From Gemmatimonadota bacterium (GTDB taxonomy: Bacteria > Gemmatimonadota > Gemmatimonadetes > Gemmatimonadales > GWC2-71-9): a stretch of 64,000 bases of DNA. This document shows, piece after piece, positions 20,895 to 33,870 of this stretch (the stretch's first letter is position 1; each line of letters opens with the position of its first letter). A program made the position numbers and the translations under genes. The stretch lies in NCBI GenBank assembly GCA_040388535.1, contig JAZKBR010000002.1:1086838-1150837 (forward strand), given 5' to 3'. Below the pieces are notes generated by a model. The model saw only the letters and a program-made list of their open reading frames with translations. It was not told the DNA's origin and ran no database searches.

Positions 20895-22847
<1,953 letters not shown>

Positions 22848-22849
22848 TC

Positions 22850-22877
22850 GAGAAGGGAGAAGGGAGAAGGGAGAAGG
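22850..22877 (+). repeat. (GAGAAGG)4 tandem heptamer
   Basis: Four exact heptamers begin two bases after the ABC-F stop codon and end right before the ATG at 22879, supplying its purine-rich ribosome-binding sequence. Same GAGANNN pattern as the arrays at 12983 and 33397, but with no inverted partner here. Confidence 0.85.
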
Positions 22878-22878
22878 G

Positions 22879-23616
22879 ATGGAACCACCAGCCACCCTGG
22901 GGAGTAGATCCCGCATGACGATGCCTTCGCTAGCGCCTTCGGCCCCGCCTGCCGTGGTCCGCCACCGCGGCATCGTGCGGCTGACCCACTGGCTCAACGC
23001 GGTCTTCCTCGCCGGAATGATCGCGAGCGGCCTGCAGATCTATACCGCCTACGCCCACATCGGGCCGCACGACGCGGTGTACCAGCTCCCTAATCCCTTC
23101 GACGCTTCACGGCTGCACATCCCGGGCGCGATCCGCCTCGGGGGCTGGCTTGCCGGCGGGCTCCGCTGGCACTTCGCCCTCGCCTGGCCGTTCGTGCTCA
23201 CGGGGGCGGCGTATCTCCTCTTCCTGATTGTGTCGGGGGAGTGGCGCGCGTTGCTCTTTCGCCCCAGGGACGTGCCCGGCTCGGTGGCAATGCTCAAATA
23301 CTATCTCCGGCTTCGCCCCGATCATCCGCCGCAGGGGAAGCACAACCCGCTCCAGAAGAGCGCCTACACCTTCATCCTGCTGCTCGCGATCATTTCGATC
23401 CTCACCGGCTTTGCCATCGCCAAGCCGGTGCAGCTTGGCTTCCTCACTTCGCTCTTCGGCGGCTACCAGCTCTCGCGCTACTGGCACTTCGTCGCGGTGT
23501 GGACCTTCACCGCGTTCCTGGTCGTGCACGTGGTGATGGTCTTCGTCGCCGATCCGGCGTCAATGCGGGCGATCATCACCGGGCGCTATCGGGGGAGGTT
23601 TCCGAACCATGGCTGA
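22879..23616 (+). CDS. Di-haem cytochrome b561-type membrane subunit
   Basis: 245 residues with four hydrophobic segments. His residues placed to bind haem include RLTHWLNAVFL (helix 1), GGLRWHFALAW (helix 2), RYWHFVAVW and FLVVHVVMVFV (last helices), as in cytochrome b subunits of formate dehydrogenase and thiosulfate reductase. It overlaps the molybdopterin oxidoreductase gene by eight bases, so it is most likely its membrane electron carrier. An alternative start is ATG 22915. Confidence 0.85.
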   Translation: MEPPATLGSRSRMTMPSLAPSAPPAVVRHRGIVRLTHWLNAVFLAGMIASGLQIYTAYAHIGPHDAVYQLPNPFDASRLHIPGAIRLGGWLAGGLRWHFALAWPFVLTGAAYLLFLIVSGEWRALLFRPRDVPGSVAMLKYYLRLRPDHPPQGKHNPLQKSAYTFILLLAIISILTGFAIAKPVQLGFLTSLFGGYQLSRYWHFVAVWTFTAFLVVHVVMVFVADPASMRAIITGRYRGRFPNHG

Positions 23617-24313
23617 CGCATTCGATCGCCGGGGCTTCCTTCTCCGGGCGGCGCCGTTCCTGCCCGCCGCGCTGGCCGCGTGCGGCTGGGATGGTGGGCC
23701 CCGACTGCAGCCGGTCCTCGACCGGGTCATCGGCTTCAACAATCAGCTGGGCGAGAAACTGCTGCAGGTGCGCGGCGCCACGGTGCCGCCGCACCAGGTG
23801 ATCACCGGCAGGATGCCGTCGTACTTCATCTCCGACACGATGCCGGTGCTCGCTGATCCGGCTGCGTGGCGGCTCGAGGTCGGTGGGCTCGTCACGACTC
23901 CGACCTCGTTCACCCCTGCCATGATCTCCGCGCTGCCGCACATCGACTACAGCGTCGAGCATCATTGCGTCGAAGGGTGGAGCGCGGTGGCCGCCTGGCG
24001 CGGGGTCCCGTTCAGCATCTTCGCCGACCTCGTCAAGCCGTTGCCGAACGCGCAGTATGTGAAATTCGAATCGTTCGACAAGGGTTACATGAATGGCTGG
24101 GATATCGCGAGCGCGATGCACCCGCAGACGATTCTCGCCGATGGCTTCGGCGATCGCCCGATTGGTCCCGATCACGGCGCCCCGCTGCGGCTCTACTCGC
24201 CGATCAAGCTGGGCTACAAGCTGACGAAATATCTCACCCGGGTGACTTTCACCGCGGAGAAGCCCGGCGGCTACTGGGAGGATCAGGGGTATCCGTGGTT
24301 TGGGGGCCTGTAG
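23609..24313 (+). CDS. Molybdopterin-dependent oxidoreductase (sulfite-oxidase fold)
   Basis: 234 residues. The N-terminus has a Tat-like motif (DRRGFLLRAAPFLPAALAACG), possibly with a lipobox ending in AAC, so it is exported folded. It carries the oxidoreductase molybdopterin-binding domain of the SuoX/MsrP group, with the molybdenum-ligating Cys in EHHCVEGWSAVAAWRGVP and a C-terminal YSPIKLGYKLTKYLTRVTF block. Substrate unknown. Coupled to the cytochrome b561 gene upstream, forming a two-gene respiratory or reductase module. Confidence 0.88.
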   Translation: MADAFDRRGFLLRAAPFLPAALAACGWDGGPRLQPVLDRVIGFNNQLGEKLLQVRGATVPPHQVITGRMPSYFISDTMPVLADPAAWRLEVGGLVTTPTSFTPAMISALPHIDYSVEHHCVEGWSAVAAWRGVPFSIFADLVKPLPNAQYVKFESFDKGYMNGWDIASAMHPQTILADGFGDRPIGPDHGAPLRLYSPIKLGYKLTKYLTRVTFTAEKPGGYWEDQGYPWFGGL

Positions 24314-24343
24314 TCCTCACGCAATCCGGGCGCCACACCCGTT

Positions 24344-24365
24344 CGTGCCGCGCGTGCGCGGCACG
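24344..24365 (+). terminator. Hairpin after the molybdoenzyme gene
   Basis: CGTGCCGCG (24344-24352) pairs with CGCGGCACG (24357-24365) around CGTG; no T-run follows. Probable 3' end structure or weak terminator. The rest of the 24314-24489 gap shows nothing else clear. Confidence 0.45.
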
Positions 24366-24489
24366 GATGTCGGAAGTCGCCGCCTGCTCCTGCTGTTCAT
24401 CGGCGTCGATGGATCTTTCTGCCGTCCTTGCGCGTTAGTACCGACAGCAACTGTAACCGCCGTACTTTCACCATGAAGAGGACTTCACG

Positions 24490-24903
24490 ATGCGAATGCG
24501 TACCCTGATGCCCGTGCTCGCCGCCGTCGCCCTGTTGCACGCTCCCGCGATGCTCAGCGCGCAGACGATGGACAAGCCCAAGGGCGAGATGATGAAGCAC
24601 GACTCGATGATGATGGGGAAGATGGATGCCGGAATGATGGCGAAGCACGACTCGATGATGAAGGGCAAGATGGACAAGGAGATGATGGCGAAGCATGACG
24701 CCATGATGAAGGGCAAGATGGACAAGAAGATGATGGCTGAGCACGAGGCCATGATGAAGGGCACGCTGGACAAGGAAACCATGGCGAAGCACGAGGCCAG
24801 GATGAAGACCATGATGGACAAGGAGATGATGGCGAAGCACGACGCCATGATGAAGCACGACTCCACCATGAAGCACGAGCATCCCGAGCCGAAGAAGCCC
24901 TGA
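24490..24903 (+). CDS. Exported Met/His-rich tandem-repeat protein
   Basis: 137 residues from ATG 24490, with GAAGAGG nine bases upstream. A signal peptide (MPVLAAVALLHAPAMLSAQ) precedes tandem units of 16 residues of the form MMAKHDSMMKGKMDKE, with unit starts at 24634, 24682, 24730, 24778 and 24826. An imperfect first unit precedes them and the tail is KHDSTMKHEHPEPKKP. The chain is almost only Met, Lys, His, Asp and Glu and lacks Cys. Met and His in this density usually bind copper or silver in the periplasm. It lies just before the copper-requiring cbb3 operon. No named family; the copper role is inference. Confidence 0.7.
   Translation: MRMRTLMPVLAAVALLHAPAMLSAQTMDKPKGEMMKHDSMMMGKMDAGMMAKHDSMMKGKMDKEMMAKHDAMMKGKMDKKMMAEHEAMMKGTLDKETMAKHEARMKTMMDKEMMAKHDAMMKHDSTMKHEHPEPKKP
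24586..24873 (+). repeat. 48-base coding tandem repeat
   Basis: Five 48-base units at 24634-24873 plus an incomplete 45-base unit before them, all in frame inside the Met/His-rich gene. Units 1 and 2 are nearly identical at DNA level and later ones have drifted, as expected of slippage- or recombination-driven expansion. Confidence 0.8.
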
Positions 24904-24960
24904 GTCCCCCGCCGGCCCGTTCGTTGCCGGCGGCCGGTAAAGGCAGTGTGAAGATGTGTT

Positions 24961-24997
24961 CATCCCGGACCTCCGCAGTGGCGGAGTGTCCGGGATG
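24961..24997 (+). other. Long hairpin upstream of the cbb3 operon
   Basis: CATCCCGGAC-CTCCGC pairs with GCGGAG-T-GTCCGGGATG around AGTG, about 16 base pairs with one bulged T. No T-run follows. It could end the Met/His gene transcript. The 24904-25150 gap otherwise holds the promoter at 25034. Confidence 0.6.
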
Positions 24998-25033
24998 CTC
25001 GCGTCGGGCTGCGCCGCAGGCCTTCATAGTCGC

Positions 25034-25063
25034 TTGAACGTGGTTCCGTCGCGCGGATACAAT
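25034..25063 (+). promoter_or_regulatory. Candidate promoter of the cco operon
   Basis: TTGAAC (25034-25039), an 18-base spacer and TACAAT (25058-25063), about 80 bases before the ccoNO start. No FNR-type half-site pair was seen nearby. Confidence 0.5.
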
Positions 25064-25150
25064 GCCGACAATCGACAGGCACAGGTCCTGTTCGTGGTGG
25101 GCGCACTGGGCGCGTCCGCCTGGCATTTCACCGCACGCCGAGGTTTCCGG

Positions 25151-27370
25151 ATGACCGCGACGGCCGCAGCTGCCGGGACCCCGCCAGGGGTCGTGCTCGA
25201 CGAGTTTTCGTACGACGATGATATCGTCCGCAAGTTCCTGGTGGCGTGTTTCGCCTGGGGCCTCATCGGGATGCTGGTCGGGCTGCTGATCGCGCTGCAA
25301 CTCGCCGATCATCGCTTCAATCTCGGGCTGCCGTTCACCTCGTTCGGCCGCCTCCGGCCGCTCCACACCAACGCGGTGATCTTCGCGTTCGCGGGGAACG
25401 CCTTCTTCTGTGGCTGCTACTACTCCTCGCAGCGCCTCTTGAAGACACGGATGTTCTCCGACACCCTCAGCCGCGTTCATTTCTGGGGCTGGCAGGCGAT
25501 CATCCTGAGTGCCGCGCTGACGCTCCCCTTTGGCCTGACGCAGGCCAAGGAGTACGCCGAGCTGGAATGGCCGATCGACATCGCGATCGCGGTGGTCTGG
25601 GTGATCTTCGCGGTGAACTTCTTCGGCACGCTGCTGCGCCGCCGGGAACGGCATCTCTACGTCGCGATCTGGTTCTACATTGCCAGCATCGTCACCGTCG
25701 CCGTGCTGCACATCTTCAACAACTTGTCGATCCCGGCGGGGCTCTTCAAGAGCTATTCGATCTACGCCGGCGTGCAAGACGCGTTCATGCAGTGGTGGTA
25801 CGGCCACAACGCCGTCGCGTTCTTCCTGACCACGCCGTTCCTCGGCCTGATGTACTACTTCATGCCGAAGGCGGCCGAGGGACCGGTCTTCTCGTACCGG
25901 CTCTCGATCCTGCACTTCTGGTCGCTGGTCTTCCTTTATATCTGGGCCGGTCCGCACCATCTCCACTATACCGCGCTGCCGGAATGGGCCTCGACGGTGG
26001 GGATGCTCTTCTCGATCATGCTCTGGGCGCCCAGCTGGGGCGGCATGATCAACGGGTTGCTCACCCTGCGCGGCGGCTGGGCCAAGGTGGTCGACGATCC
26101 GATCCTGAAATTCTTCGTTGTCGGCATCACCGCGTACGGCATGTCGACCTTCGAAGGGCCGATGCTCTCGATCAAGAGCGTCAACGCCCTCGCCCACTAT
26201 ACCGACTGGATCATTGCCCACGTCCACACCGGCGCGCTGGGATGGAACGGGTTCATCACCTTCGGAATGATCTACTGGCTGCTGCCGCGCCTCTTCCAGG
26301 CGCCGCTGCACTCGAAGAAGCTGGCGGAAGCCCATTTCTGGGTCGGGACTTTCGGCATCATCCTCTACGTGGTGGCGATCTACAGCGCCGGGGTCACTCA
26401 GGGGCTGATGTGGCGTGCCTTCGATGAAACCGGTCGCCTGATGTATCCGGACTTTGTCGAGACCGTCGCGAAACTGATGCCGATGTACTGGGTGCGGGTC
26501 GCCGGTGGCTCCCTCTATATCGTCGGGATGTTCCTGTTCGGCTACAACATCCTGATGACCTGGCGGAAGCGTCCGGCGAAGTACGAAGTCCCCGTGATCC
26601 GTGCCGCGCCGCTCGCCCCCGCCTTCATGGAGGCGCCCGTCGCGGTCCCGGCTGGCGAGGGATTCATCGGCCGGATCCGGGCGATGCGCTATCACCGTCG
26701 CTGGGAGCGGATGCCTCTCCTCTTCACCGCGCTGACGATTCTCGCGGTCGTGGTGGCCTCGCTCTTCGAGATCCTGCCGACCTTCCTGATTCGCTCCAAC
26801 GTGCCGACGATCGCCTCGGTGAAGCCCTATACACCGCTCGAGCTCTACGGCCGCGACATGTACATCCGCGAGGGGTGCTTCAACTGCCACTCGCAACAGA
26901 TCCGCCCGCTCCGCTATGAGACCGAGCGCTACGGCGAATATTCCAAGCCCGGCGAATTCGTGTACGATCACCCCTTCCTCTGGGGATCACGGCGCCTCGG
27001 CCCCGATCTCGCCCGCGAGGGCGGGAAGTATCCCAACCTCTGGCACGTGCGTCACTTCGCGAACCCGCGCGAGATCGCGGCGCGTTCGATCATGCCGAAC
27101 TACCCGCAGTTCGCCAGCACGGTGATTCCCTGGGACGTAATTCCGAAGCGCGTCGGCGTGATGGCGATGCTCGGCGTGCCCTACGGTGAGGCGGTGACCA
27201 ACGCGATTCCGATGGCGCAGGCACAGGCCCGCGCTCTCGCCGCCGATGTCGCGGCCTCCGGTGGTCCGCGCGGTCTCGAGGACAAGGAGATCATCGCCAT
27301 CGTCGCCTACATCCAGCGCCTCGGCCACGACATCGCCATGAATCGCCCGGCCGCGACGAGGACCCCATGA
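25151..27370 (+). CDS. ccoNO: cbb3 cytochrome oxidase, fused CcoN-CcoO
   Basis: 739 residues from ATG 25151, with GAGG seven bases upstream. Residues 1 to about 490 are the haem-copper subunit CcoN: LRPLHTNAVIF, WWYGHNAVAFFLTTPFLG, GPHHLHYTALPEW and HVHTGALGWNGF supply the haem b, b3 and CuB histidines. From about 530 a membrane helix (LLFTALTILAVVVASLFEILPTF) leads into CcoO with one haem c site (GCFNCHSQQI) and the family block RRLGPDLAREGGKYPNLWH. The two are normally separate genes. The enzyme reduces oxygen with high affinity and pumps protons. It overlaps ccoQ by four bases. Confidence 0.96.
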   Translation: MTATAAAAGTPPGVVLDEFSYDDDIVRKFLVACFAWGLIGMLVGLLIALQLADHRFNLGLPFTSFGRLRPLHTNAVIFAFAGNAFFCGCYYSSQRLLKTRMFSDTLSRVHFWGWQAIILSAALTLPFGLTQAKEYAELEWPIDIAIAVVWVIFAVNFFGTLLRRRERHLYVAIWFYIASIVTVAVLHIFNNLSIPAGLFKSYSIYAGVQDAFMQWWYGHNAVAFFLTTPFLGLMYYFMPKAAEGPVFSYRLSILHFWSLVFLYIWAGPHHLHYTALPEWASTVGMLFSIMLWAPSWGGMINGLLTLRGGWAKVVDDPILKFFVVGITAYGMSTFEGPMLSIKSVNALAHYTDWIIAHVHTGALGWNGFITFGMIYWLLPRLFQAPLHSKKLAEAHFWVGTFGIILYVVAIYSAGVTQGLMWRAFDETGRLMYPDFVETVAKLMPMYWVRVAGGSLYIVGMFLFGYNILMTWRKRPAKYEVPVIRAAPLAPAFMEAPVAVPAGEGFIGRIRAMRYHRRWERMPLLFTALTILAVVVASLFEILPTFLIRSNVPTIASVKPYTPLELYGRDMYIREGCFNCHSQQIRPLRYETERYGEYSKPGEFVYDHPFLWGSRRLGPDLAREGGKYPNLWHVRHFANPREIAARSIMPNYPQFASTVIPWDVIPKRVGVMAMLGVPYGEAVTNAIPMAQAQARALAADVAASGGPRGLEDKEIIAIVAYIQRLGHDIAMNRPAATRTP

Positions 27371-27573
27371 AACTCTCCGACATCATGAGTCATGCGGGAC
27401 TCTCGATCTACGCCGAAGTCGCGCTGGTGCTCTTCCTGGCAGCGTTCTGCGGGATCATCTACTGGGTCTTCCGTCCGGCGTCGGCCGCGACCTGGCAGCG
27501 TGCTGCCCGGCTCCCGCTGGATGATGAAGCGGAGCCGTCCTCTCTTCGTCGTGCAGGAGGCGATCGTGAGTGA
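27367..27573 (+). CDS. ccoQ: cbb3 oxidase small subunit CcoQ
   Basis: 68 residues. One transmembrane helix (YAEVALVLFLAAFCGIIYWVF) followed by RPASAATWQRAARLPLDD, matching the CcoQ pattern of a helix then a short charged tail. It stabilises the oxidase complex. Overlaps ccoNO (ATGA) and ccoP (eight bases). Confidence 0.88.
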   Translation: MKLSDIMSHAGLSIYAEVALVLFLAAFCGIIYWVFRPASAATWQRAARLPLDDEAEPSSLRRAGGDRE

Positions 27574-28120
27574 ACAGGACCGGATCATCGAACACAGCTA
27601 CGACGGGATTCAGGAGTACGACAATCCGATGCCGGCGTGGTGGGTCACCATCTTCTGGGCGACGATCATCTTCTCGGCGATCTACGCCGTCAACCGCTTC
27701 GGGATCGGGGCGGGGAAGGGGCGGATCGCCGAATACGAAGCCGAGATGGCCGCGGCGCGGAAGGCACACCCGCCCGAGGCACCGAGTATCACGCCGGAGC
27801 AGCTGCTCGCGCTCGCCGCGTCGCCGGAGCGCGTACACGAAGGGCAGGAAATCTTCGCCAAGAACTGCAGCGCCTGTCATGCGACGGACGGCGGCGGAAT
27901 CATCGGCCCTAACCTCACTGATGACGCGTGGATTCACGGCGGCCGGATCGAGCAGATCCACACGACCATCAACGGTGGCGTGCTCGCCAAGGGGATGCCA
28001 GCGTGGGGCCAGATCCTGAAGCCGAAAGACATCGATGAGGTGACGGCCTACGTGTGGTCGCTGCATGGCAGTCGTCCGGCGAAGCCGAAGGCGCCGGAAG
28101 GCGAGGTGATGGCCCGGTGA
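27566..28120 (+). CDS. ccoP: cbb3 oxidase subunit CcoP with a single haem c
   Basis: 184 residues from GTG 27566, with AGGAGG at 27555-27560. The N-terminal signature YDGIQEYDNPMPAWW and one membrane helix are typical of CcoP. Only one CxxCH (CSACHATDGGGIIGPNL) is present, with the axial Met in KGMPAWG, whereas classical CcoP has two haem sites and is longer. It delivers electrons to CcoO. The one-haem form is a real feature of the gene, since the frame is intact and ends in the four-base overlap with ccoG. Confidence 0.93.
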   Translation: MSEQDRIIEHSYDGIQEYDNPMPAWWVTIFWATIIFSAIYAVNRFGIGAGKGRIAEYEAEMAAARKAHPPEAPSITPEQLLALAASPERVHEGQEIFAKNCSACHATDGGGIIGPNLTDDAWIHGGRIEQIHTTINGGVLAKGMPAWGQILKPKDIDEVTAYVWSLHGSRPAKPKAPEGEVMAR

Positions 28121-29511
28121 CTGCCCCCGCCGCTCGCGGACGCGTGTTGCCGACCCTGAACGAAGACGGGTCGCGCAACTGGTTGCGCCCGAAGCTCTCC
28201 ACCGGGTCGTGGTTCAACCGGCGGCGGATCGTGGCCTATATCCTCGTCATCGTATTCATCGGCCTGCCGCACGCGACCATCCGCGGCAAGCCGGCAATCC
28301 TGCTCGACGTGCCGCGCCGGCAGTTCACCATCCTCGGCAGCACCTTCCTGCCAACCGACACGCTCCTGCTGATGCTGCTGCTGGCAAGCGTCGTGATCGC
28401 GATCTTCCTCTTCTCGGCGCTCTTCGGGCGGGTCTGGTGTGGCTGGGCCTGTCCGCAGACGGTCTATCTGGAGTTTCTCTACCGGCCGATCGAGCGTCTC
28501 TTCGAGGGCGGGCGCAGTGGCTCGCTCCAGCTCGACAAGCGTGGCGCGCACCTGCATCCTCGTCGGCTGGCCAAGTACGCTGTTTACCTCGCACTTTCGC
28601 TCCTGCTGGCGCACACCTTCCTGGCGTATTTCGTCGGGACCGAGGCGCTCGAACGCTGGGTGCGACTCTCGCCGGTGGAGCATCCCACGCCGTTCCTGGT
28701 GATGGCAGTGACTACCGCGCTCATCTTCACCGACTTCACCTGGTTCCGGGAGCAGACCTGCCTGATCGCCTGCCCCTACGGCCGGTGGCAGTCGGCCCTG
28801 CTCGACCGACAGTCGCTGGTCGTGGCCTACGACTACAACCGCGGCGAACCACGGGCGCGCGGCAAGGAGCGCGCGACAAACGCAGGCGATTGCATCGACT
28901 GCCACGCCTGCGTCACGACCTGTCCGACCGGCATCGATATCCGCAACGGCCTGCAGATGGAGTGTGTCCACTGCACCCAGTGCATGGATGCCTGTGATGC
29001 CATCATGGACCAGGTGGGGAAGCCGCGCGGCCTGATTCGCTACAGCTCGGGCGATGCGCTGGCCGGCAAGCCGCGGCACCTGCTCCGACCGCGTGTGGTG
29101 CTTTACCCGCTCGCGCTCACGCTGTTCTTCGGCGGGTTTCTGTACGCCCTGGGCACGCGCCCTGCTGCGGATGTCACCCTGCTTCGCTCACAGGCCGAGC
29201 CGTTCCGGATCGAGCAGGATGGCCGGATCGCAAACCAGATCCGCGTCCGGATCGGCAATCGCAGCCGCGTGCCACACGCATATCGGATCGACGTACGCGG
29301 CGCGGACGATGGCGAGGTCATTGCGCCCGAGAATCCGGTGCAGGTCAATGCCAACGATCTCCGGACCACGTCGCTCTTCGTACTGCTGCCGCGCACGGCG
29401 TTCCGCAACGGCCGGCGCGACATCACCGTGCGCATTCGCGCCGGTGAGACCTTCTCTGCCGAATACCCCTTCAACCTGATGGGACCGACCGCCGGCCCCG
29501 GGAAGCCCTGA
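28117..29511 (+). CDS. ccoG: cbb3 assembly ferredoxin-like protein CcoG
   Basis: 464 residues from GTG 28117, overlapping ccoP by GTGA. Several membrane helices with the WCGWACPQTVYLEF motif are followed by two [4Fe-4S] clusters (CIDCHACVTTCP and CVHCTQCMDAC), another helix and a C-terminal Ig-like domain. CcoG reduces copper for the oxidase active site. All Cys ligands expected of the family are present. Confidence 0.95.
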   Translation: MTAPAARGRVLPTLNEDGSRNWLRPKLSTGSWFNRRRIVAYILVIVFIGLPHATIRGKPAILLDVPRRQFTILGSTFLPTDTLLLMLLLASVVIAIFLFSALFGRVWCGWACPQTVYLEFLYRPIERLFEGGRSGSLQLDKRGAHLHPRRLAKYAVYLALSLLLAHTFLAYFVGTEALERWVRLSPVEHPTPFLVMAVTTALIFTDFTWFREQTCLIACPYGRWQSALLDRQSLVVAYDYNRGEPRARGKERATNAGDCIDCHACVTTCPTGIDIRNGLQMECVHCTQCMDACDAIMDQVGKPRGLIRYSSGDALAGKPRHLLRPRVVLYPLALTLFFGGFLYALGTRPAADVTLLRSQAEPFRIEQDGRIANQIRVRIGNRSRVPHAYRIDVRGADDGEVIAPENPVQVNANDLRTTSLFVLLPRTAFRNGRRDITVRIRAGETFSAEYPFNLMGPTAGPGKP

Positions 29512-30047
29512 TGGCGTGGATCAGGAAGGATCGCATCTGGCCGACGATCGTCATCACTGTCCTGGGAGCGAACGTGGTGTTGGGCATCGTGCTCGCGCGA
29601 GTGGCCAACAGTGACAGTCATTTTGCCGTCGAACCGGACTACTACCGCAAGGCAGTCGGCTGGGATTCGACCATGGCACAAGGAAGCCGGAACCATGCTC
29701 TCGGTTGGCAGGTGATTCCGCACATCGGGCCGGTCGCATCACGAGGGACCACGCCGCTCGAGCTCGAGATCCGGGATGCCACGGGTGAGCCCCTGGTGGG
29801 TGCCACGGTCTCCGTCGACGCGATGGCGGTCGCCTATGCCAACGACGCGGAGCAGCGTGACCTCCCGGCCACCGCACAGCCGGGACACTATGCCGCCCCC
29901 GTGAACATGGCACATACCGGGCTCTGGGAGTACCGGGTCTCGGCCTTCCGCGGCACGGAACGCTTCACGGCAAACCTCCGCCTCGATCTTTCAACAACCG
30001 CAGCCGCACAGGTAGTGGTCTCGCGCCCCGGTGACGCCCCACGATGA
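29511..30047 (+). CDS. ccoH: FixH/CcoH-family assembly protein
   Basis: 178 residues. One N-terminal helix (IWPTIVITVLGANVVLGIVLA), the FixH hallmark EPDYYRKAVGWD and a periplasmic Ig-like domain (PLELEIRDATGEPLVGATVSVD). Needed for assembly of cbb3 oxidase. It overlaps ccoG by one base and the next gene by four. Confidence 0.88.
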   Translation: MAWIRKDRIWPTIVITVLGANVVLGIVLARVANSDSHFAVEPDYYRKAVGWDSTMAQGSRNHALGWQVIPHIGPVASRGTTPLELEIRDATGEPLVGATVSVDAMAVAYANDAEQRDLPATAQPGHYAAPVNMAHTGLWEYRVSAFRGTERFTANLRLDLSTTAAAQVVVSRPGDAPR

Positions 30048-30778
30048 CCCTCGCGCTCGCCGTGCTGGTGGCATCGCTGCTCGGGAGCGTCCATTGCGTG
30101 GCGATGTGCAGCGGCTTCAGTTGCCTCTATGCCCCGGCCGGTGCGAACTGGCGTGATACCAGGTCGGCGCACACCGCGTATCATCTCGGCCGGTTGATCG
30201 CCTATCTGCTCCTCGGCATCGTCGCGGGCCTGCTCGGCGCGGGGTTCGATCGGACCGGTGCACTCGCGGGAGTGAGTGGCATCGCGGCAATTGTTGCTGC
30301 CATGTTGCTGACGGTGTGGGGCGCAAACGCCGTGCTGGTCGCGCTCGGGCAGCGCGCGGTGGTGGTGCGGCCCCCGGCGGGGTGGCAACGCGCGATGGGG
30401 AGCGTACTGCAGCGGTTCAGGGACGCCACGCCGATCGTGCGTGCGGCTGCGACCGGCCTCTGCACGAGTGTGCTGCCGTGCGGCTGGCTCTACGCCTTCG
30501 TGGTCGTCGCGAGCGGCAGTGGTTCGCCGTGGCGCGGGGCCGCCCTGATGTCGGTCTTCTGGCTCGGCACGCTGCCCCTGATGCTCACGGCGGCGGCGGG
30601 ACTGCAGCGAATCAACGGCGCGGTGCGCGCCCGATTGCCGCTCCTGAGTGCGACCACCATCCTGCTGCTTGGTACCTTCTCGCTCGCGGCGCATCTGGGG
30701 CTCCTCCCGATGCAGTGGCTCCATGCCCTCCTTCCGGCGACCCCGATGGCCGGGATGTCGCACGGACCACAGCCGTGA
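30044..30778 (+). CDS. SafE/DsbD_2-like membrane protein of the cco operon
   Basis: 244 residues, about six membrane helices. The N-terminal motif GSVHCVAMCSGF (usually HCxGMCGG) and the middle motif TGLCTSVLPCGWLYAF place conserved Cys residues in two helices, as in the DsbD_2 family that usually sits in cco operons and is thought to move copper or reductant for oxidase assembly. C-terminus is Met/His-rich (MAGMSHGPQP). The exact cargo is not known. Confidence 0.82.
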   Translation: MTLALAVLVASLLGSVHCVAMCSGFSCLYAPAGANWRDTRSAHTAYHLGRLIAYLLLGIVAGLLGAGFDRTGALAGVSGIAAIVAAMLLTVWGANAVLVALGQRAVVVRPPAGWQRAMGSVLQRFRDATPIVRAAATGLCTSVLPCGWLYAFVVVASGSGSPWRGAALMSVFWLGTLPLMLTAAAGLQRINGAVRARLPLLSATTILLLGTFSLAAHLGLLPMQWLHALLPATPMAGMSHGPQP

Positions 30779-33246
30779 GCACGACCCAGTTGGGGGTCGC
30801 ATGTGCACACTGCGGACTCGCGGTCCCCCCGGCGCTGCTCGACGTCGCGGGCGGACCCTCCTTCTGCTGCAACGGCTGCGCGGCGGTGTTCGAGATCCTC
30901 CGGCACCACGGGCTCTCGCGCTACTACGGCTTTCGCGAGCGGCGCGGTGCGGCGGTGCGGAGCAGCGGGCGGAGCTTCGAGGAATTCGATCACCCCGCGT
31001 TCGCCGAGCTCTACGTGCAGCCCATGCCGGATGGCCGGGCGGTGACCGAGCTCTACCTCGAGGGCGTGCACTGCGCGTCGTGCGTCTGGCTGGTTGAGCG
31101 CGTCCCGTTGCTGGTGCCAGGGGTCGTGCGCGCCGAACTTGATGTGCGACGGTCGCTGGCGCGGATCGAATGGGATCCGCACCAGCTGATGCTATCGCAG
31201 GTCGCCCGCACGCTCGATCAGCTGGGCTACACGCCGCATCCGTTCCGGGGTGTCGCGCGCGATGCGATGCGCCGTCGTGAAGACCGCGCCATGCTCGCGC
31301 GAATCGGTGTCGCCGGAGCGATCGCCGGCAACGTCATGCTCCCGGCGCTGGCCCTGTACTCCGGCGAGTTCCACGGGATGGAAGTGGCCTACACCGGTCT
31401 CTTCCGGTGGGTGTCGCTGCTGCTCACCATTCCGGCGCTTCTCTTTCCCGGTCGAATCTTTTTCACTGGTGCCCTCGCGGCGTTGCGCACCCGACGGCTC
31501 CATATGGACCTCCCGATTGCTCTCGCCCTCGGTGCCGGATTCCTGCGCGGTGCGATCAACACCGTTGCCGATAGCGGGCCGATCTACTTCGATGGTGTCA
31601 CGGTGCTGATCTTCGCGCTGCTGGCGGGGCGATTTCTCCAGCTGCGAGGTCAGCGCGCCGCCGCCGACGCAGCCGAACTTCTCTATTCGCTCACCCCCGA
31701 TTCAGCGCGCGTCTGCGATGCCGATGGAACCGAGCGGCTGGTACCGGCGACGGCGCTGCTCCCCGGCATGCAGATCCGGGTGCGCGCGGGCGAGAATTTC
31801 CCGGCGGATGGTGAGGTGTGCGAGGGCGCCACGACCGTCAATACGGCACTGCTCACTGGCGAGTCCCGACCCGTCTCGATCGGCCCCGGTGCGGCGGTGC
31901 ACGCGGGCACGCTCAACGTGGCCGCACCAGTGACCGTGCGCGTCGATCAGGCTGGCAGTGCGAGCCGGCTGGCGCGACTGCTCCGCCAGGTCGAGGAGAG
32001 TGCACTTCGTCGGGTTCCGGTGGTGGCCACGGCCGACCGGATGGCCGGATGGTTCATCGCCGCGGTGCTCCTGCTCGCGACGATCACTTTTCTGATCTGG
32101 CACGTGCGGAATCCGGCCGCCGCATGGGACAACGCCATCGCCCTGCTGATCGTGACCTGCCCCTGCGCGCTGGCACTCGCGACGCCGCTCGCGGTGTCGG
32201 TCGCCGTCGGCCGTGCGGCCGGGTGCGGCATCTACATCAAGGGCGGCGATGTCCTCGAACTCCTCGCGACGCCGGGGCACCTGGTGCTCGACAAGACCGG
32301 GACCCTGACCGAGGGACGCCTCGCGCTTGCGGAATGGCATGGTGACGAGCGCAGTCGCGCGATGGTGCTCGGTCTCGAGGCGGGTTCATCGCATCCCATC
32401 GCCGATGGCTTTCGTCGCGCCTGGCCTGGGCTCACCCTGCCGGCGGTCGAAGCGGTCGCTCATCATGTCGGGGGTGGCATCACCGGTCGCATTGCCGGGA
32501 GTGAGGTGGTGGTCGGCTCGCCGCGATTTGTCGAGCGTCGCGCCACGGGCGTCGAGCCCTGGCTCGATCGCCTCGCGGATCCGACGCTCACTCCCGTGCT
32601 GGTCGCGATTGATGGCGTGGTGCTCGCGGTCGCCGGACTTGGCGACCAGATTCGCAGCGGCGTCGCCGGCGCGCTCGACGCGCTGCGGAGCCGCGGCTGG
32701 ACCACGACCCTCCTCTCGGGCGATGACCCGGCGGTGGCGCGTGCGGTCGGGTCGCAGCTCGGCTTCAAACCGGCAGATGTCATCGGCGGGGCGACGCCAG
32801 AGGCAAAGCTGGCACGGGTAGCGGCGTGGCGCGCGGCGGGTAATACCGTGGTGATGGTCGGTGACGGCGTCAACGACGCCGCGGCCATCGCGGCCGCGCA
32901 CGTCGGAATCGGCGTACATGGTGGCGCGGAGGCGTGTCTCGCCACGGCCGACGTCTATCTCACCGAACCCGGGCTGGCGCCGCTGGTGCGACTGATGACC
33001 GGATCGGAGCGGACGCTCCGGGTGATTCGCCGCAATATCGGCTGGGCGCTTGCCTACAATGCGATCGGACTCACCCTGGCGATGACCGGGAAGATCTCGC
33101 CGCTCATCGCGGCCATCATGATGCCGCTCAGTTCGCTCACCGTCGTGCTGCGCAGCTGGCTCGGCACGACCTTCACCGGCTCGCGGCCGGAGCCACGCCA
33201 CGTGCTCGTCGAAACGGCGCCACGGGCCCGCGAGGTCGCCGCATGA
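30775..33246 (+). CDS. ccoI: Copper P1B-type ATPase for cbb3 assembly
   Basis: 823 residues from GTG 30775, overlapping the previous stop. The N-terminal Cys-rich segment (CAHCGLAVP, FCCNGCAAVF) is followed by a heavy-metal domain with HCASCVW. The membrane metal site is TCPCALALATP; phosphorylation DKTGTLTEG; nucleotide binding SSHPIADG; hinge GDGVNDAAAIAA. This matches CcoI/CtpA, which exports copper to the periplasm for the oxidase. ccoS follows with a four-base overlap. Confidence 0.95.
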   Translation: MSTTQLGVACAHCGLAVPPALLDVAGGPSFCCNGCAAVFEILRHHGLSRYYGFRERRGAAVRSSGRSFEEFDHPAFAELYVQPMPDGRAVTELYLEGVHCASCVWLVERVPLLVPGVVRAELDVRRSLARIEWDPHQLMLSQVARTLDQLGYTPHPFRGVARDAMRRREDRAMLARIGVAGAIAGNVMLPALALYSGEFHGMEVAYTGLFRWVSLLLTIPALLFPGRIFFTGALAALRTRRLHMDLPIALALGAGFLRGAINTVADSGPIYFDGVTVLIFALLAGRFLQLRGQRAAADAAELLYSLTPDSARVCDADGTERLVPATALLPGMQIRVRAGENFPADGEVCEGATTVNTALLTGESRPVSIGPGAAVHAGTLNVAAPVTVRVDQAGSASRLARLLRQVEESALRRVPVVATADRMAGWFIAAVLLLATITFLIWHVRNPAAAWDNAIALLIVTCPCALALATPLAVSVAVGRAAGCGIYIKGGDVLELLATPGHLVLDKTGTLTEGRLALAEWHGDERSRAMVLGLEAGSSHPIADGFRRAWPGLTLPAVEAVAHHVGGGITGRIAGSEVVVGSPRFVERRATGVEPWLDRLADPTLTPVLVAIDGVVLAVAGLGDQIRSGVAGALDALRSRGWTTTLLSGDDPAVARAVGSQLGFKPADVIGGATPEAKLARVAAWRAAGNTVVMVGDGVNDAAAIAAAHVGIGVHGGAEACLATADVYLTEPGLAPLVRLMTGSERTLRVIRRNIGWALAYNAIGLTLAMTGKISPLIAAIMMPLSSLTVVLRSWLGTTFTGSRPEPRHVLVETAPRAREVAA

Positions 33247-33398
33247 GTGTCCTCTTTCTCGTCGTGCCACTCGCCTTGGTGCTCGTGGCACTCGCTGTCG
33301 GCGCCTTCCTTTGGTCGTCGCGCAGCGGACAGTTCGACGATCTCGACACGCCGGCGCTGCGGGTGCTGCATGATGAGGAGACGGGTGACGGAGGGTGA
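33243..33398 (+). CDS. ccoS: cbb3 maturation protein CcoS
   Basis: 51 residues, starting at ATG 33243 inside the ccoI stop (ATGA). One membrane helix (LFLVVPLALVLVALAVGAFLW) followed by the CcoS signature SRSGQFDDLDTPALRVLHDE. Required for copper or haem insertion. Ends in ETGDGG and a stop that touches the left arm of the inverted heptamer repeat. Confidence 0.92.
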   Translation: MSVLFLVVPLALVLVALAVGAFLWSSRSGQFDDLDTPALRVLHDEETGDGG

Positions 33399-33464
33399 AG
33401 CGAGAAGGGAGAAGGTGAAGGGAGAAGGGTGACAGCTCCCTTCTCCCTTCACCCTTCTCGCTTC
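33397..33464. repeat. Inverted GAGAAGG-type repeat between convergent genes
   Basis: The left arm 33397-33429 is built of GAGAAGG and GTGAAGG-like units; the right arm 33438-33464 is its complement, lacking one heptamer-sized piece. The loop is about eight bases. It lies exactly between the convergent ccoS and S4 genes and probably terminates both. Confidence 0.85.
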
Positions 33465-33468
33465 TCGT

Positions 33469-33870
33469 CTATCTCCCTCTCAACTTATCGAGGGCGCGTC
33501 TGTCCTTCTTGCTCGGCTTGCCCTCGTCGAACTCCATCGCCGGCGCGAGACGCAGCATTTCGGCGTGACGCGCCCGCGCCGCGACGGACGCGACGGTTTC
33601 CTCGAAGAGCGCCGCGGCCTGGGTGGCGCTGCCGCGTCGCTCCGCCAACCCGGTCACCTGCACGATGTGTTCGAACGGCCCGAGTCGGACCCGGATCAGG
33701 TCGCCGCGCTGGATGGTCTTGGCCGGCTTGGGGTGTTCACCGTTGACCTCGACCTTTCCGCCGGCCACGGCTTCCGTCGCGGCTGAACGCGTCTTGTAGA
33801 AACGGGCCGCCCAGAGCCATTTGTCGAGGCGGACTTTCGTCGCGCTCTCTTCCGATCCCTTGCCTGCCAT
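33469..33870 (-). CDS. S4-domain RNA-binding protein (Hsp15-like)
   Basis: 133 residues. An S4 domain at the N-terminus (KVRLDKWLWAARFYKTRSAATEAVAGGKVEVNG) is followed by a basic tail (KPSKKDRRALDKLRGR), matching the heat-shock protein 15/HslR family that binds stalled 50S subunits. Start is ATG 33870; a hairpin at 33872-33905 lies directly before it. Confidence 0.85.
   Translation of the reverse strand: MAGKGSEESATKVRLDKWLWAARFYKTRSAATEAVAGGKVEVNGEHPKPAKTIQRGDLIRVRLGPFEHIVQVTGLAERRGSATQAAALFEETVASVAARARHAEMLRLAPAMEFDEGKPSKKDRRALDKLRGR

Follow-up and report, generated by a model that had tools for sequence, protein, structure and literature searches.

A Met/His-repeat protein encoded behind a cytochrome b561-YedY pair in Gemmatimonadota as a candidate periplasmic methionine sink

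The repeat gene and its immediate neighbors

The window analyzed here, a stretch of 64,000 nucleotides from a Gemmatimonadota bacterium, carries a gene for a methionine-rich protein between a cytochrome b561-YedY pair and the operon for a cbb3 oxidase (Table 1). The open reading frame (ORF) opens with an ATG codon, with a GAGG sequence ~8 nt upstream, and its product begins with MRMRTLMPVLAAVALLHAPAMLSAQ, which by eye resembles a Sec signal peptide; the repeat units follow, most frequently in the form GKMDKEMMAKHDAMMK, and the chain ends in a short KHD/KHE tail. Counted manually from Q25 onward, 30 of the 113 residues are Met and 9 are His, and Cys, Trp, Tyr, and Phe are absent; from residue 23, the composition is 26% Met, 8% His, 20% Lys, and 17% Asp+Glu. 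The dipeptide H-D/E recurs at residues 37, 53, 69, 85, 101, and 117 (i.e., with a spacing of exactly 16), the lag-16 identity of the protein is 0.56 (the best-lag maximum over 2000 shuffles being 0.29), and Tandem Repeats Finder reports a 48-bp unit in 5.5 copies with 84% matches. The ORF, the lag-16 identity, and the repeat finder thus bear out the regular 16-residue chain of Met, His, Lys, and acidic residues described in an earlier sequence-only reading of this DNA. Because the differences among the repeat copies are mostly silent (pS 0.47 vs. pN 0.14), we conclude that this gene is translated and under constraint. On the opposite strand, the long ORFs at 24397–24963 and 24468–24869 are by-products of the repeat.

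No Pfam model scores above its cut-off for the Met-rich protein, and NCBIfam returns zero matches. A single-sequence AlphaFold2 model of low confidence (pLDDT 63.6, pTM 0.24) contains about one short helix per unit; a Foldseek search with this low-confidence model gave no match, nor was any solved structure matched. Hairpins flanking the gene are no better than those in shuffled sequences (z = −1.7 and −0.8), and we therefore make no terminator claim.

The two genes directly upstream, which share the strand of the Met-rich ORF and do not figure in the sequence-only reading, encode the b561 cytochrome and a molybdopterin oxidoreductase. The best NCBIfam model for the latter is MsrP (E = 1.5e-25), under that model's cut-off, and its sole Protein Data Bank match is E. 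coli YedY (1xdq); since the MsrP cut-off is not reached, "YedY-like" is the safe name for this product. The gap between the YedY-like gene and the Met-rich ORF is 176 bp, and that between the Met-rich ORF and the likely ccoN ATG is 247 bp. Downstream, profile matches identify a CcoNO fusion, CcoQ, CcoP, CcoG, CcoH, DsbD_2, and CcoI, in agreement with the cbb3 operon with ccoI, ccoG, and a DsbD_2-like gene that had been described earlier. CcoN and CcoO lie in one frame (ORF 24956–27370, matching the bifunctional model), a fusion seen in several relatives as well. The promoter match ahead of this operon hints, on weak evidence, at a separate cco transcription unit.

Table 1. Features of the b561-YedY, Met-rich, and cco region (positions in the window)
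Feature	Position	Strand	Remarks
Cytochrome b561 (Ni_hydr_CYTB)	22879..23616	+	Pfam PF01292, E=7.4e-29; true start possibly ATG near 22921
YedY/MsrP-like molybdopterin oxidoreductase	23609..24313	+	PF00174, E=2.6e-29; overlaps b561
Met/His-rich 16-residue-repeat protein, predicted exported	24490..24903	+	137 aa
Probable Sec signal peptide, residues 1-24	24490..24561	+	By-eye reading; cleavage before Q25 assumed
Six 16-residue (48-bp) units, residues 27-122	24568..24855	+	Five with M-X2-H-X2-M
Sigma-70-like promoter match, TTGAAC-18-TACAAT	25034..25063	+	1 found vs. 0.5 expected by chance
CcoN-CcoO fusion, first gene of the cbb3 operon	25151..27370	+	NF011053, 1223.9 bits vs. cut-off 1080; start inferred from sequence

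Gene neighborhoods within and outside the phylum

The position of the Met-rich gene, closely ahead of ccoN on the same strand and followed by CcoI and other maturation genes, had led to the proposal that its product stores or delivers copper specifically for the cbb3 oxidase. With CcoNO as the query, 24 of the family's 102 genomes gave matches, and most of these genomes were sampled for a comparison set of 20 cco regions (293 kb) from relatives; six-frame scans found a Met/His/Lys-repeat ORF of similar kind in none of the 20. The survey of gene neighborhoods that the sequence-only reading had called for thus speaks against the association with a copper oxidase that it had suggested, an outcome which that reading had itself listed as counting against its proposal. 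The regions without a Met-rich gene include those of two genomes of the same genus (G077 and G079), in which cco occupies the same chromosomal site. Together with the possible promoter between the Met-rich gene and ccoN, these results make a store serving the cbb3 oxidase very unlikely; the position ahead of the operon looks incidental, and cco looks like an unrelated neighbor.

The site in question (22847–33469), flanked on one side by an ABC-F gene and on the other by an S4-domain gene followed by a histidine kinase (S4-HisK-RR), is variable in the genus. In G077 and G079, it holds neither b561-YedY nor the Met-rich gene besides cco (G079 is contiguous through to S4-HisK, and the G077 contig stops within ccoI). 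In G076, G081, G082, G084, and G078, it holds b561-YedY and no cco; G078 has a cation:proton antiporter there as well. All three elements occur together at the site only in the source genome, and the b561-YedY loci of all other genomes of the genus have no Met-rich neighbor. Hence, the presence of the cco operon varies irrespective of the Met-rich gene, and because the same holds for b561-YedY, the genus alone cannot choose between the two neighbors.

In searches with the Met-rich protein, none of the family's 102 genomes yielded a further homologue at E ≤ 0.001 and the 395 genomes of the phylum yielded only weak matches, and a DNA-motif search within phylum genomes found no relatives of the gene. 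A plasmid search with the low-complexity filter on gave nothing, and no homologue was confirmed in a collection of genome contigs, where low complexity may impair confirmation as well. Scanning that collection for the pattern MMxKHDxMM gave nine matches, mostly unrelated low-complexity proteins; among the matches inspected, one adjoins a Cus-type efflux set and none adjoins YedY. In a protein from a Flavobacteriaceae metagenome-assembled genome (L128, 178–651, minus strand), MMKHDKMM repeats alternate with metal-binding-like stretches of the form YTC(A/T)MHP...CPECGM, and the neighboring genes are CusA/CusB/TolC-like (named by resemblance). The TIGR02953 profile (cut-off 41 bits), which four control proteins pass, does not match the Met-rich protein even at E = 10, and finds no match in the whole source genome.

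A few simple Met/Lys/His-repeat exported proteins surfaced in searches of the phylum in which Met-rich sequences were the only queries. In G312, which belongs to another family of the same order, the gene for a Met/His/Lys-repeat protein containing ...MKHDGMAKGDAMKHD... and a divergently oriented b561-YedY pair are ~130 bp apart, and genes for ECF sigma and zf-HC2 anti-sigma factors follow; the repeat protein scores 41.1 bits against TIGR02953, barely above the cut-off. In G448, a Met/Lys-rich exported protein is the first gene of the divergent unit, in the same place as in G312. Simple Met/Lys-repeat proteins are found at 3 of 117 YedY loci (a set that includes the window and G312) vs. 0 of 20 cco loci, and most of the b561-YedY loci examined have no Met-rich neighbor. 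A counter-example is G158, in which a Met/Lys-rich protein is encoded ~0.9 Mb from YedY.

G041, from the source genome's own family, encodes a DM13-domain protein with MxKDx stretches ~1.6 kb from YedY, adjoining ECF and RskA-type anti-sigma genes. G040, G185, and G041 have exported proteins in which Met-rich, MxKDx-like stretches are joined to a domain of the DM13 type (electron transfer), the assignment coming from Pfam for G041 and from resemblance for the other two. In G087, again from the source genome's family, a small, moderately Met-rich lipoprotein-like ORF (L122, 8407–8712, plus strand) overlaps the end of YedY.

The same gene order is also found outside the phylum. With the window's YedY-like protein as the query, we retrieved plasmid records and inspected 16 regions, and in four plasmids of Pseudomonadota (from Kozakia baliensis, Yersinia ruckeri, Burkholderia contaminans, and Caballeronia grimmiae) a b561-type cytochrome b gene, yedY, and a gene for a Met-rich exported peptide follow each other in the same order and orientation. 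Three of the four peptides carry an MXKDX repeat annotation and pass TIGR02953. A sigma factor with DUF1109/NrsF is also present in Kozakia, Caballeronia, and a Methylobacterium, and MsrA/MsrB in Kozakia and Methylobacterium. In two further regions (Methylobacterium bullatum and Cupriavidus), an MxKDx-type ORF lies 1–3 kb away, and the remaining ten of the 16 have no Met-rich ORF; the link between YedY and Met-rich peptides outside the phylum is frequent, not universal. Some of the YedY pairs lie close to metal-related genes: on a Paraburkholderia fungorum plasmid, cueR and the genes for an HMA protein and a metal ATPase are ~1.2 kb away from b561-YedY, and on two Rhizobium plasmids, the pair lies beside a heavy-metal-type two-component system.

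The absence of homologues among the 395 genomes of the phylum and the variability of the chromosomal site would also fit a young, lineage-specific repeat protein unlinked to either neighbor (e.g., a general charge or stress-buffer protein). The constraint on the repeat copies, the high Met content, the probable signal peptide, and the presence of b561-YedY pairs beside similar proteins in other lineages argue against this explanation, and we consider it quite improbable.

Promoter motifs and sigma factors

The motif GGAAC[CT]-N15-GTCTA has 18 matches in 658 kb, distributed over ten loci, and 17 of the 18 lie in the gap before b561; a shuffled sequence gave 1 match and the reversed pattern gave 2. 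In both G312 and G448, a copy is present on either side of the divergent gap (i.e., on the Met-rich side and on the b561-YedY side), so that the Met-rich gene and the pair share a divergent promoter region of the ECF type. The Met/Lys-rich gene of G158 is without the motif. Among ~80 b561-YedY loci in the family of G312, about twenty have an ECF gene nearby, nearly all of them with a zf-HC2 gene, and in several, CcdA/DsbD-like and thioredoxin-like genes lie between the ECF gene and b561. In genomes of one family (f2; L120 and L164–L173), a unit of CcdA/DsbD-like, thioredoxin-like, ECF, and zf-HC2 genes is divergent from b561-YedY, with paired motifs; such loci look like a periplasmic redox-repair regulon.

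In the source genome, the motif was found neither upstream of b561 nor upstream of the Met-rich gene, a tblastn search around the b561-YedY-Met-rich locus detected no ECF gene, and NrsF was not found in the genome. An ECF factor 48% identical to that of G312 is encoded elsewhere, and with other ECF genes elsewhere in the genome, another ECF factor could act on the Met-rich locus. A TGTAACC sequence upstream of the Met-rich gene was considered as a promoter of the Brucella BcrS type and rejected; it is a lone 7-mer with a poor −10 element and spacing, and NrsF is absent.

Methionine cycling, metal binding, and known systems

The recurring association of Met-rich proteins with b561-YedY elsewhere points to methionine-sulfoxide cycling, and we favor, at a probability of a little under 0.6, the reading that the Met-rich protein is a periplasmic methionine sink like MrpX and BcrX that is recharged by YedY-b561. 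As judged from its N terminus, the protein would be exported to the periplasm, where it may be unfolded or loosely helical; its exposed Met residues would be converted to Met sulfoxide by hypochlorite or other strong oxidants, and the adjacent YedY-like molybdoenzyme would turn the sulfoxides back to Met, with the b561 cytochrome as the proposed quinol-linked electron donor. Against this reading, the regular His residues are unnecessary for an oxidant sink, the upstream enzyme scores under the MsrP cut-off, and the locus has neither an adjacent ECF/NrsF gene nor the promoter motif of its relatives.

An alternative is a sponge for Cu(I)/Ag(I) in the periplasm, similar to SilE/PcoE and disordered when empty, with M-X2-H-X2-M units that bind soft metal and fold to helix, in which case YedY would merely keep the Met ligands reduced. 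With 7 MX2H, 5 HX2M, and 5 MX2HX2M motifs, the window protein exceeds the other Met-rich proteins compared, its M-X2-H-X2-M motif resembles the MxxH...HxxM motifs with which SilE binds Ag(I) and folds upon binding (PMC5008109), and the short helices of the low-confidence model fit such a protein. In E. coli, MsrP repairs the copper chaperone CusF, and CusSR controls msrPQ in copper stress (PMC9302797). The SilE-like motif, the Flavobacteriaceae protein encoded beside Cus-type genes, and the repair of CusF make a metal sponge or a dual role possible, and the Paraburkholderia plasmid provides a further metal connection. The neighborhood examined, however, has no sil/pco/cus genes, the neighbors being b561-YedY and cco, the protein matches no metal-binding family (NCBIfam, Pfam) and no solved structure, Met far exceeds His, and what recurs as a partner is a pair resembling sulfoxide reductase. 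From its motifs, it is plausible that the window protein binds Cu(I)/Ag(I), and a dedicated metal sponge seems to us unlikely, if well worth keeping in view. Rather doubtful is a dual use, in which the Met/His repeat would both bind Cu(I)/Ag(I) and act as an oxidant sink, reduced by a dedicated YedY-b561 pair; if true, metal buffering and Met-sulfoxide repair would be one system.

On the methionine-sink reading, what was supposed to be a cbb3 copper store is recast as a methionine-cycling system, and Met-rich sinks linked to YedY-b561 are indicated outside Proteobacteria; in some relatives, the sigma/anti-sigma pair is a different one (ECF and zf-HC2), and CcdA- and thioredoxin-like genes are present as well. 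With its distinct M-X2-H-X2-M unit, the window protein also allows one to ask directly whether Met-rich sinks handle copper as well.

Among known systems, SilE/PcoE share with the window protein a predicted periplasmic location, Met/His at i, i+3, and an expected disorder with helix-forming units; the window protein differs in having no family match, no sil/pco neighbors, far more Met, and a strictly regular 16-residue unit, and neither sequence nor context makes it a member of SilE/PcoE. MsrPQ-CusF of E. coli is similar in that a YedY enzyme maintains a Met-dependent protein of the periplasm in the reduced state; in contrast to the window protein, CusF is a folded, single-site chaperone, and the membrane cytochrome MsrQ belongs to a different family from b561. 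The TIGR02953 pentapeptide MXKDX proteins have a signal peptide and Met-rich repeats in common with the window protein, and several of the members examined directly follow b561-YedY, as the window gene does; unlike them, the window protein gives no match to the model. BcrX, a Met-rich MXKDX protein of Brucella, is encoded in one transcribed operon with BcrQ and BcrP; HOCl induces this operon, which plays a part in resistance to HOCl, and regeneration of BcrX by BcrPQ has been proposed (PMC8315932). MrpX of Azospira, a Met-rich hypochlorite scavenger encoded with yedYZ, is presented as the prototype in three papers (PMC8315932, PMC5748585, PMC4623255). Like MrpX (Azospira suillum) and BcrX (Brucella melitensis), the window protein is a small Met/Lys/acidic repeat protein, predicted to be exported and encoded beside a YedY-like reductase and a membrane cytochrome; it has a 16-residue M-X2-H-X2-M unit instead of the five-residue MXKDX, and its gene has no adjacent ECF/NrsF genes; MrpX and BcrX belong to the SigF/NrsF and BcrS/AbcS regulons with yedYZ and bcrQP, respectively. 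It also comes from a different phylum, and context suggests a corresponding role; by function and context, the Met-rich protein is best filed as a variant of the MrpX-type scavengers outside TIGR02953.
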